64,000 nucleotides of DNA from Pseudonocardiales bacterium (GTDB lineage: Bacteria > Actinomycetota > Actinomycetes > Mycobacteriales > Pseudonocardiaceae), in assembly GCA_023252195.1 (NCBI GenBank), contig JAHEXI010000004.1, positions 124,001 through 188,000 of the forward strand. Reading direction: 5' to 3'. The translations under genes were made by a program, and so were the position numbers. Each line of letters opens with the position of its first letter. Position 1 is the first letter of the stretch. Below, piece after piece: positions 21,116 to 24,039 of this stretch. A model generated the notes under the pieces. It was not told the origin of the DNA. It did not search any database and saw nothing but the letters and a program-made list of their open reading frames with translations.

Positions 21116-22531
21116 TTAGCGGTAGCAGTAGGAGTCTGAGGAGGCGTCGCCGCCTTGGAGGCGGACTTGGTGTACTCGCAGGCCCCGGAAGTCCTCGCCG
21201 TGTAGGAAGAAGCCCTCATCGACGGTGAGCCCACCACCGGCGGGTGCGTCGATCTTGGCCAGCCACGCGCCGACGCCGTCGGGGTAGAACTGGTCGTCCC
21301 AGGCGCCGTAAAGCGAGTTGGTGAGATACACCCGCCCGCCGTCGCGGCTGACCTCGACCATCTGCGGGCCGCCGGCCAGTGGCAGCTCGGGTGCGGCCGG
21401 GTGGGCCGCCCGGCCGACGATGCCGCCCAACCGCACCGAGCCGGTCTCGCGTGGGTTCGCCGGGTCGGACACGTCGTACTGTTTGAGCTCACCGGTGCCG
21501 AAGCACGAGACGTACAGCTGCTGGTCGTCCACCGACAGGTTGATATCGGTGACCAGCGGCGGGACCGCACCGAAGGGTTTCAGGGCCGGCGGCAACAAAT
21601 CAGGGTCGGCGGGTTCGGCGGCAATGGTGATCACCTTGTTGGCGGCCCAAGTCTCCCCATCACGGTGCCAGCGCCACACCGAGGCGGACAGGTCCTGGGT
21701 GGACACGACGACACCGACGAATCCCCAGCTGGCCTCGGGATCGTGCGCCGGGCGCAGCTCGAGCACCATCTGGTGGTGCGCGCCCAGGTCGACCCGCTGG
21801 AGGTGCTTGCCGGCCGCCAGGTCCCAGAAGTGCAGGGCGTGGCCGTATTTGTTGCCCAGTAGCAGCTCCGGGTTGACCCCGTCCTCGATCATCGACGGGG
21901 TGCCCCACTCACTGGTGACCAGCGTGTTCTGCTTCAGGTGCCACCAGGCGTCATACGCCAGGTGCTGTGGGCCCCGGTCGCTCTCCCAGGGGCCCACCAC
22001 GTCGAAAGTGGCGTGGTCGAGCAGGGCGATCCCACCCGGTCCGTCGGCACCGTCGGCCCCACCGAGACAGGACAGGAAGATCCCCTCGGGCCCGCAGTGC
22101 AACGTATGTGGCCGAGAGTAGCCGGCTTTGTCAGCCAGTTCTTTGGCGTCGATCGTCTTGACCAAGGTGGGATTGGTGGGGTCGGGCTGGGTGTCATAGA
22201 CGTGCACGTTCGAGCTGCGCAGTCCGGGTAGCAGCAGGTAACGGCGCTGCAGACCGATCATGTCGTGGCCCTCGTGGGCCAGCGCACTGCTGCAGGCATT
22301 CCAGCCGAAGTGATGCAACTCATCGCCCAGAGTAGGCAGGTCCGCCCAGCCCACCACCTGCCCGTATCGGGGTGAGCTGGGATCGACGCCGATCACGGTC
22401 AGTGCGTCGGGCCGCTGGGCCGTGCGGTCGAACGCGACGACGTAGGCAAGCGTCTCAGCCGGTGCGGCGCCGGCCTCGGCGGGGCTGCGGTAGAAGGTCG
22501 GGTCTGACGATGTGTGCGCTGGTGCGCCCAT
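21116..22531 (-). CDS. mtoX: methanethiol oxidase / selenium-binding protein SBP56 family
   Basis: 471 residues, matching the SBP56 length. Family features: PTFYRSPAEA near the N-terminus, HHFGWNACSSALAHEGHD (copper-coordinating histidine region in bacterial MtoX), RPHTLHCGPEGIFLSCLGG, SEWGTPSMIEDGVNPELL and SLYGAWDDQFYPDG. Bacterial members are copper enzymes that oxidise methanethiol to formaldehyde, hydrogen sulfide and hydrogen peroxide; bacterial MtoX is usually periplasmic, yet no signal peptide is seen here. Upstream lies a small ORF resembling sulfur-type leader peptides, which supports a role in sulfur metabolism. The symbol mtoX is my inference from the family. Confidence 0.87.
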   Translation of the reverse strand: MGAPAHTSSDPTFYRSPAEAGAAPAETLAYVVAFDRTAQRPDALTVIGVDPSSPRYGQVVGWADLPTLGDELHHFGWNACSSALAHEGHDMIGLQRRYLLLPGLRSSNVHVYDTQPDPTNPTLVKTIDAKELADKAGYSRPHTLHCGPEGIFLSCLGGADGADGPGGIALLDHATFDVVGPWESDRGPQHLAYDAWWHLKQNTLVTSEWGTPSMIEDGVNPELLLGNKYGHALHFWDLAAGKHLQRVDLGAHHQMVLELRPAHDPEASWGFVGVVVSTQDLSASVWRWHRDGETWAANKVITIAAEPADPDLLPPALKPFGAVPPLVTDINLSVDDQQLYVSCFGTGELKQYDVSDPANPRETGSVRLGGIVGRAAHPAAPELPLAGGPQMVEVSRDGGRVYLTNSLYGAWDDQFYPDGVGAWLAKIDAPAGGGLTVDEGFFLHGEDFRGLRVHQVRLQGGDASSDSYCYR

Positions 22532-22593
22532 GGAAGTTCTCCTTGAATCAGGTCAGATGGCCGTACGAGGGGGTGTGTCGAGACGGCGATAGC

Positions 22594-22734
22594 TCATCGA
22601 CCGCGACATAAGGCGCTGGCTAGCCGGAGGAGATCGACGTGCCGGCGCACGGTCAGCCAGGCGGTGCGAAACACCGGACCGTCGAGCCGACGGCGGTAGG
22701 CAGCGGATCGGCCGGGCGTGATGGTGGTCATCAT
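22594..22734 (-). CDS. putative cysteine-type leader peptide upstream of the methanethiol oxidase gene
   Basis: On the minus strand a 46-codon frame runs from ATG 22734 to TGA 22594. Its C-terminal part reads VRRHVDLLRLASALC followed by RGR and the stop. The RRHVDL-x-R-x-xSALC pattern is what I know from short actinobacterial 'putative leader peptides' that precede sulfur-metabolism genes. Those usually start much closer to the motif; in-frame GTG codons at 22674 and 22650 would give 26 or 18 residues. The oxidase starts 62 bases after the stop. Cys codon TGT is the fourth before the stop. The inferred role is translation-dependent attenuation in response to cysteine supply. Confidence 0.68.
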   Translation of the reverse strand: MMTTITPGRSAAYRRRLDGPVFRTAWLTVRRHVDLLRLASALCRGR

Positions 22735-22842
22735 GGCAGGGCTCCCTACGAAGTCACCACAGACATTACTGTTTTCACCAGACCTCCGCGACGCCTACGA
22801 GGCTTCACTGCGAGGCCACCGGCGCGCGACGAAAGGAGCCTC

Positions 22843-24039
22843 ATGGCACGGCTCGCGCAGACCGCCGACCTCACCGAGATCCAGCGGGAGATCCTGGCCA
22901 CGGTCAAGACCTTCGTGGACAAGGAGATCATCCCGGTCGCCCAGGAGTTGGAGCACACCGACACCTACCCGCAGGAAATCGTCGACGGGATGAAGGAGAT
23001 GGGTTTGTTCGGGCTCACCATCCCCGAGGAGTACGGCGGCCTGGGGGAGTCGCTGTTGACCTACGCGCTGGTCGTGGAGCAGATCGCCCGCGGTTGGATG
23101 AGTGTCTCTGGTGTGATCAATACCCACTTCATTGTGGCCCACCTGATCAGCCACCACGGCACCGCCGAGCAGAAGCAGCATTACCTACCGGCAATGGCCG
23201 ATGGTCGCATCCGCGGTGCCTTCTCCATGTCGGAGCCGGAGCTCGGTTCCGACGTCGCGGCGATCAAGACAAGAGCCCGACGTGATGGTGAGCACTACGT
23301 CGTCGACGGCGCGAAGATGTGGCTGACCAATGGTGCCACCTCCACCCTGGTGGCGACGTTGGTCAAGACCGACGAGGGTGCGGCGAAGGCGCACCACAAC
23401 CTCACCACGCTGTTGGTGGACAAGCCCACTGGGTACGGTGAGGTCGCTCCCGGGCTCAGTGTGCCCGGCAAGATCGACAAGATGGGCTACAAGGGAGTCG
23501 AGACCACCGAGCTGGTCTTCGACGGCTACCGCATCGGAGCCGACAAGGTGCTGGGTGCCGCCCCCGGCAAGGGTTTCGCACAGATGATGGATGGCGTCGA
23601 GGTGGGTCGGGTCAACGTTGCCGCCCGGGCCTGCGGCATTGCCATCCGAGCCTTCGAGCTCGCCGTCGACTACGCCCAGCAGCGCAAGACCTTCGGCAAG
23701 CCGATCGCACAGCACCAGGCGATCGCGTTCAAGCTGGCTGAGATGGCCACCAAGATCGAAGCCGCGCACCTGATGATGGTCAACGCCGCCCGGCTGAAGG
23801 ACTCCGGCGAGCGCAACGACGTCCAGACCGGGATGGCGAAGCTACTGGCCAGCGAATACTGCAAGGAGGTCACCGAAGACGCTTTCCGCATCCACGGTGG
23901 ATACGGCTACTCAAAGGAGTACGAGGTGGAGCGGCTGATGCGCGAAGCGCCCTTCCTGCTCATCGGCGAGGGCACCAGCGAGATCCAGAAGACGATCATC
24001 AGTAAAGGGTTGCTGCGGGAGTACCCTGCCCGAGGTTGA
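22843..24039 (+). CDS. acyl-CoA dehydrogenase
   Basis: 398 residues with the complete acyl-CoA dehydrogenase fold: N-terminal helical domain (EIQREILATVKTFVDKEIIPVAQELE), FAD/substrate region FSMSEPELGSDVAAIKTRA and KMWLTNG, then YAQQRKTFGKPIAQHQAIAFKLAEM and the C-terminal IHGGYGYSKEYEVERLMREAP-IGEGTSEIQ. It oxidises an acyl-CoA to the 2-enoyl-CoA with FAD. The start at ATG 22843 has AAAGGAG; longer in-frame starts cover the opposite leader ORF. Chain-length preference cannot be read from the sequence. Confidence 0.92.
   Translation: MARLAQTADLTEIQREILATVKTFVDKEIIPVAQELEHTDTYPQEIVDGMKEMGLFGLTIPEEYGGLGESLLTYALVVEQIARGWMSVSGVINTHFIVAHLISHHGTAEQKQHYLPAMADGRIRGAFSMSEPELGSDVAAIKTRARRDGEHYVVDGAKMWLTNGATSTLVATLVKTDEGAAKAHHNLTTLLVDKPTGYGEVAPGLSVPGKIDKMGYKGVETTELVFDGYRIGADKVLGAAPGKGFAQMMDGVEVGRVNVAARACGIAIRAFELAVDYAQQRKTFGKPIAQHQAIAFKLAEMATKIEAAHLMMVNAARLKDSGERNDVQTGMAKLLASEYCKEVTEDAFRIHGGYGYSKEYEVERLMREAPFLLIGEGTSEIQKTIISKGLLREYPARG

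Follow-up and report, generated by a model that had tools for sequence, protein, structure and literature searches.

An SBP56 gene and the short reading frame before it

The window, by which we mean the whole 64,000-nucleotide stretch that was analysed, carries on its minus strand a gene of the SBP56 family and, 62 bases before the ATG (22531) of this gene, the stop codon of a short ORF (Table 1). The ORF, 22594-22734, encodes MMTTITPGRSAAYRRRLDGPVFRTAWLTVRRHVDLLRLASALCRGR-stop and has VRRHVDLLRLASALC-RGR-stop as its C-terminal end, which confirms the frame and the spacing given by the sequence-only reading of this DNA. Its probable start is the second ATG, at 22731, which is the one conserved in both of the closest readable relatives.

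Table 1. Features of the leader and SBP56 region, in window positions
Feature	Position	Strand	Basis
SBP56 / methanethiol-oxidase-family gene, presumed target	21116..22531	-	PF05694 611 bits; LHHFGW, PHTLH
AAGGAG, Shine-Dalgarno of the SBP56 gene	22539..22544	-	read from sequence
Candidate rut-like Rho-loading stretch, C-rich and G-poor (21 C / 9 G of 49)	22545..22593	-	composition
Leader ORF, 46 codons	22594..22734	-	frame; NF042934 33.1 bits
Leader stop codon TGA	22594..22596	-	three codons separate Cys from TGA
Conserved family motif RRHVDLLRLASALC	22606..22647	-	family model; leader alignment
Terminal Cys codon TGT, presumed sensor codon	22606..22608	-	sequence; family codon counts
Leucine codon TTA, immediately preceding the Cys codon	22609..22611	-	sequence; very rare codon in the group
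AGGGAG, likely Shine-Dalgarno of the leader ORF	22742..22747	-	read from sequence; kept in two closest readable relatives
Intergenic stretch from leader to divergent acyl-CoA dehydrogenase gene; promoter expected	22748..22842	.	no sigma-70 consensus recognised

Membership of the downstream product in the SBP56 family is certain (611 bits against PF05694, gathering cut-off 34). The protein carries LHHFGW at residue 72 and PHTLH at residue 141, the HH and HxxH motifs, equated by motif and without alignment to human SELENBP1; an excerpt of PMC10362175 reports that mutating such motifs abolished the activity of the human protein. Among the relatives found by sequence, only 2ECE has a solved structure. 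Against the methanethiol oxidase equivalog NF052453 the protein reaches 103.6 bits, under the required 650, and methanethiol oxidase is therefore a likely name and not a firm one. The sequence-only reading had described a methanethiol oxidase making hydrogen sulfide: the family holds, but the equivalog score does not carry the name, and three tested Rhodobacteraceae MTOs are reported in an excerpt of PMC10936201 to make sulfane sulfur rather than H2S. Sulfane sulfur instead of H2S may also be the product of the window enzyme, for which a putative part in sulfur metabolism is likely.

Several tests bear on the reality of the short ORF: (i), it scores 33.1 bits against NF042934 (E 2.9e-8, curated cut-off 27) and is the best match to this model in its genome (E 2.4e-7, among the nine matches listed). 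(ii), an HMM built from 30 family leaders gives it 35.8 bits, the best control scores being 4.2 bits for 112 reverse-complemented upstream regions and 11.8 bits (next 4.8) for 112 shuffled ones. (iii), counted from the shared ATG, the frame is 45 codons long in the window and in both of its closest readable relatives, and the gap between leader and gene varies (60, 62 and 64 bases over the window and these two). (iv), 6 and 7 codons differ synonymously from the two relatives and 6 and 5 differ non-synonymously, with pN/pS of 0.34-0.41 over the leader frame and, in the 19 codons of the motif region, pN of 0.02-0.05 vs pS of 0.13-0.19 (three pairs; all of these are small numbers). Substitutions that ignored codon structure had been named beforehand as the mark of a chance frame; within the small numbers, this pN/pS and the conserved length point the other way. 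On its scores the ORF is a member of the NF042934 'putative leader peptide' family, which it resembles in exceeding the curated cut-off, in being short and in carrying a terminal Cys three codons before the stop; what sets it apart is its target, an SBP56 gene.

The leader family and its occurrence before SBP56 genes

At E<=0.01, NF042934 finds a match in 146 out of 150 genomes from the window's family. In the 4.74 Mb genome searched, two convincing leaders accompany that of the window: VVRRHVDYVRVSSALC-RPIS, upstream of a nitrite/sulfite-reductase-domain gene (none of the NCBIfam equivalogs scores above its cut-off; the frame is cut by the locus end), and LVRRSPVDLRRVASALC-PAR, upstream of a CDO_I (cysteine-dioxygenase-type) gene that overlaps the start of a rhodanese-domain frame. 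A fourth match at E<0.01, L005, was set aside as a long frame unlike a leader. Inducing a cysteine-degrading enzyme during cysteine shortage would be odd, so the real substrate at the leader-bearing locus with the CDO_I gene and the rhodanese-domain frame (L004) may be another thiol.

For the family at large we used 141 leaders, the best-scoring places among the matches listed, of which 132 came from search hits and nine from SBP56 loci (three of the nine Streptomyces). The downstream gene, picked by script for 130 of the 132 search-hit leaders, gave 122 non-redundant targets: 32 nitrite/sulfite reductases, 22 SDF symporters, 10 TauE exporters, 9 aliphatic-sulfonate binding proteins, 5 luciferase-like monooxygenases, 5 DUF4395 proteins, 4 rhodaneses and single cases such as TauD, CDO_I and OsmC, with others besides. 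SBP56 does not appear among the best 25 of 27 Pfam families for these 122 genes. By this Pfam make-up the family leans strongly to sulfur supply, which bears out the earlier statement that leaders of this type stand upstream of sulfur genes in actinobacteria. The SDF symporters are of dicarboxylate type and perhaps serve the uptake of cystine or other sulfur compounds.

Before SBP56 genes the leader was sought with the 30-leader HMM, up to 500 bases upstream. Eight of 11 genomes of the window's genus have the gene; six of these show a clear leader (15.4 to 36.0 bits, the window counted), one a weak leader (8.9 bits, under the best shuffled score of 11.8) and one is unreadable, the contig stopping 78 bases upstream of the gene. 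The NF042934 cut-off of 27 is passed in the genus only by the window (33.1) and G002 (33.9), the other clear leaders reaching 26.3, 25.6, 24.6 and 19.2 and the weak one 13.9. Among 80 named SBP56 loci there are five clear leaders and one weak one, two loci having too little upstream sequence; three of the clear leaders and the weak one belong to the window's genus and two clear ones to Streptomyces. The 31 fetched genomes of the same family yield three clear leaders and one weak, all in the window's genus. In these partly overlapping sets, a clear leader is missing from 72 of 74 readable named loci outside the window's genus, from all 27 fetched loci of other genera of the family, from all 29 loci of the phylum set (36 matches, 30 with loci, one being the window's own) and from 16 of 18 SBP56 loci of the Streptomyces-like genus. 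The latter 18 loci, from 19 matches, comprise two clear leaders, L199 at 14.7 bits and five at 7 to 11 bits. Of the Streptomyces leaders, L182 (also listed as L051) and L183 exceed the NF042934 cut-off of 27 with 28.9 and 28.0 bits, and L072 falls below it with 21.9. Short ORFs of a different type that end in Cys were also counted upstream of SBP56 genes at other loci: the 157 regions contain 24 on the forward strand and 17 on the reverse, an unconvincing difference. The count omits L011-L015 and regions under 250 bases. Among plasmids, 74 records contain relatives, two of them from Streptomyces.

In a tree of 137 SBP56 proteins, made after removal of 15 distant rows, short rows and duplicates, clear leaders fall in two places. 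One is the window's genus; the other is a starred clade formed by the three Streptomyces L051, L072 and L183, where the leader is again close to the likely gene start. When weak and unreadable rows are scored as lacking a leader, the label changes four times on the tree and the starred branches force at least three changes; when weak rows are scored as having one, there are six changes, at least four of them forced. Two gains of the leader, together with losses or misread rows inside the window's genus, would be the simplest reading of this pattern, and a single old gain followed by many losses would be a less simple alternative. The same tree places SBP56 genes from MAGs labelled Dormiibacterota or Chloroflexi (L021, L025 and L028) inside the actinobacterial clade, by transfer or through misbinned contigs.

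Six loci of a further Streptomyces group, L192-L199 (L192, L193, L194, L196, L197 and L199), keep an HxDLERV-like motif upstream of SBP56. Several of them have Ser or Arg in place of the Cys or lack the nearby stop, and their frame may continue further; we regard this leader as decayed or altered. A CTCCCGTTCGGGAG hairpin adjoins the Shine-Dalgarno sequence in most members of the group, and in several a second CGGGAG overlaps the codons past the old Cys.

Orthologous genes had been proposed as a check on the leader. The frame is kept in the window's genus (six clear cases of eight) and in three Streptomyces, but most other SBP56 genes examined have no clear leader, and the leader is not a general feature of SBP56 enzymes. 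This scarcity, and the clade among L192-L199 that keeps the motif and often loses the Cys or lets the frame run on, are what one would expect of a degenerate or chance leader without control over the SBP56 gene. We nevertheless consider this reading highly improbable, because the window leader is the top match of its genome among those listed, because non-synonymous changes per site are fewer than synonymous ones in the window's genus and because the same gene is preceded by a leader in two separate groups.

Codon choice, peptide conservation and the RNA behind the stop

Of 135 distinct leaders, 90 use TGT for the terminal Cys and the other 45 use TGC; with the three Streptomyces set aside, TGT stands in 87 of 132. 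The TGT background in 137 downstream ORFs is 15.6%. Eight of the nine SBP56 leaders have TGT. The bias is complete in the Streptomyces-like genus, with TGT in 70 of 70 leaders vs a background of 9.9% (13 TGT and 118 TGC among 131 Cys codons of 45 ORFs with high third-position GC); a first background for this genus (52 TGT, 93 TGC) was discarded as contaminated by antisense frames. These 70 leaders, from 30 loci and 40 further places picked among the matches listed, include many mutual orthologues, and since the leaders are related and not independent observations, binomial p-values for the bias overstate it. A bias of this kind would be expected if the decoding of the terminal Cys codon is sensed. 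Directly before this codon, the TTA of the window is the sole TTA among 83 leucine codons at that position, against a background share of 0.2% for TTA among leucine codons. In the two closest readable relatives the codon there is TTG.

The peptide is likely to matter as well, since Asp10 and Arg13 are invariant in all 141 leaders although their codons vary; Arg6 is present in 139 of 141. Such conservation far beyond the Cys, together with a short distance from Cys to stop that recalls TnaC, would suit an arrest peptide, a nascent RRHVDLxRxASAxC that halts the ribosome on a small molecule (cysteine or a sulfur species) with the Cys as part of the peptide signal and not as a starvation sensor. 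We think this unlikely: an arrest peptide does not need the strong preference for TGT, which acts on the codon, and has no known ligand here.

Behind the leader stop the RNA is rich in C and poor in G. The first 50 bases contain more C than G in 122 of 134 distinct segments, compared with 45% at ordinary gene stops (n=242) and 42% at stops with a co-directional next gene (n=86), the control stops being those of script-predicted genes from other loci with a different genome mix than the leaders. Over 136 leaders, the last ten bases to the stop's end have C at 0.32 and G at 0.33, and the first ten past it have C at 0.51 and G at 0.25, with YC dimers rising from 0.15 to 0.33; the bin from -60 to -50 upstream is also C-rich (0.45 vs 0.29). 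From the leader stop to the Shine-Dalgarno sequence C exceeds G in 98% of 94 cases, as against 47% in leaderless SBP56 upstream regions (n=133) and 40% in intergenic regions that precede other genes (n=43). For the Streptomyces-like genus, where we had predicted at least 80% in advance, C exceeds G past the stop in 65 of 70 leaders; the C excess is already present in several ten-base bins before the stop, so that the switch in composition is less sharp in this genus (the HMM left 13 of the 70 leaders out of the bin-wise composition; the count took all 70). Seven of the nine SBP56 leaders show the excess past the stop, and L206 (16 C, 19 G) and L205 (17 of each) do not. The first 45 bases past the stop are no less folded than their own shuffles (-11.85 vs -11.71). 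Rho loads on C-rich, G-poor RNA that is free of ribosomes, and a stretch of this composition, as a Rho attenuator would have it, is found behind the leader stop of the window, with 21 C to 9 G in 49 bases. The stretch could also be another device, for example an open landing stretch for ribosomes.

In 22400-23000 we found no intrinsic terminator (GC-rich stem plus T run, 0 sites) and no sigma-70 promoter, and no Rfam family matched the window at gathering score. A conserved hairpin in the motif was rejected, the consensus fold of 136 leaders being empty. The largest excess of complementarity is between codons 7 and 14 (positions 20-41, 113 paired vs 77 expected; 21-40, 88 vs 61), and it looks like subfamily structure, since the pair is broken in many of the exceptions (R7-Q14, R7-L14) and the strongest covariation, 43-57, is not base pairing. 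The leader RNA is more stable than versions with codons permuted within positions (mean MFE -22.75 vs -20.28 over 136 sequences, about 2.5 kcal/mol), and in these 136 sequences no shared helix with convincing covariation lies behind the extra stability.

This stability, and a precedent said to exist in the cysteine genes of M. smegmatis, could speak for translational attenuation, in which RNA structure hides the Shine-Dalgarno sequence of the gene that follows until a Cys-stalled ribosome frees it. Besides the missing helix, three results argue against it. In the 98 of 141 leaders with a recognisable Shine-Dalgarno sequence and start (95 distinct), opening that sequence costs 9.99 in the real vs 10.17 in synonymously resampled leaders (p 0.17, n=95), and moving the ribosome from an upstream position to the Cys does not make it more accessible (p 0.31, n=95); in the window leader a stall raises the opening cost from 5.3 to 6.9. 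Thermodynamic folding as used in this test can miss real switches, and we hold translational attenuation to be rather improbable.

Proposed control of the SBP56 gene by cysteine

Cysteine control is the likely function of the window leader. We propose, with a probability of about 0.5, that this NF042934-family leader controls the SBP56 gene behind it by stall-controlled, Rho-type attenuation on cysteine. The proposal builds on what can be read in the sequences, namely the ORF, its family, its conservation before SBP56, the UGU bias and the C-rich RNA past the stop; leader translation, stalling, cysteine as the signal, Rho and the substrate of the enzyme are the parts that we infer. When charged Cys-tRNA is plentiful, the ribosome would pass UGU, read three further codons, terminate and leave, exposing the C-rich, G-poor RNA that directly follows the stop codon, and Rho, or another factor needing ribosome-free RNA, would halt transcription ahead of the SBP56 gene. 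Under cysteine shortage the ribosome would wait at UGU and cover the start of the C-rich RNA, the SBP56 gene would be transcribed and sulfur would be taken from methanethiol or related thiols. A ribosome held at the Cys would cover the start of the C-rich stretch because the Cys lies only one to four codons from the stop in 130 of 141 leaders, a distance kept in only 50 of 70 leaders of the Streptomyces-like genus.

Rho-type attenuation is our best candidate mechanism. It counts against the proposal that one Cys codon, without help from the peptide, would sense starvation only weakly, that L205 and L206 have no C excess, that 45 of 135 leaders use TGC and that most SBP56 genes of other genera are leaderless. 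A more tentative reading, which we rather doubt, extends the proposal to the whole NF042934 family as a single-codon cysteine attenuator, in which a pause at UGU would shield a Rho-loading stretch that begins at the stop; it would have been placed twice before SBP56, making the oxidation of methanethiol or another thiol part of the cysteine-starvation response.

A parallel to Rho-type attenuation is offered by TnaC, the leader peptide of the E. coli tna operon, on which the ribosome is halted with tryptophan a short distance from the stop. There, as is proposed here, a ribosome stalled near the end of the leader protects the C-rich RNA directly behind the stop from Rho, but the signal in the window would be a lack of cysteine and not an excess of an amino acid, and the part of Rho is here one that we infer. 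In mycobacteria, the cysteine genes of M. smegmatis are reportedly subject to Cys-codon translational attenuation by poly-cysteine leaderless short ORFs (Canestrari 2020). This mycobacterial work is cited in excerpts of PMC9031893, PMC9094748 and PMC13236596; Cys-rich upstream ORFs in mycobacteria are reported in an excerpt of PMC4633059, and the part of PMC1262725 available lists candidate mycobacterial cys leaders and proposes Rho, calling its own prediction rather weak. The window leader shares with these ORFs, which precede sulfur genes, a Cys codon near the stop of a short ORF, and the gene behind it is a likely sulfur gene. However, it has a single Cys and no run, the conserved RRHVDL motif and its own Shine-Dalgarno-like sequence, and therefore is not of the mycobacterial poly-Cys type; its scores against Ms5788A (20.1 bits) and Ms4527A (18.3 bits) lie below the cut-off of 45.

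In the literature searched, no paper combines 'methanethiol oxidase' with 'leader peptide', and the earlier remark that no leader is known to be assigned to the SBP56/MtoX family agrees with this. By its sequence, then, the window holds a known leader family before a target gene, SBP56, for which we found no such assignment in that literature. The leader would link the widespread and poorly understood SBP56 family of actinobacteria to sulfur supply and suggests that SBP56 acts as a sulfur scavenger, beyond mere thiol detoxification; the terminal TGT and the C-rich RNA past the stop give a sequence-based hint at how these very common leaders may work. The mtoX genes of Hyphomicrobium and Ruegeria, as described in an excerpt of PMC5739008, encode members of the same family with the HH and HxxH motifs. 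They differ from the window gene in their surroundings, with SCO1 and MauG as neighbours and an IclR-type regulator in Ruegeria, whereas the four neighbours scanned at the window locus are MgtE/CBS, Mrp-type ATPase, acyl-CoA dehydrogenase and YflT-domain genes.
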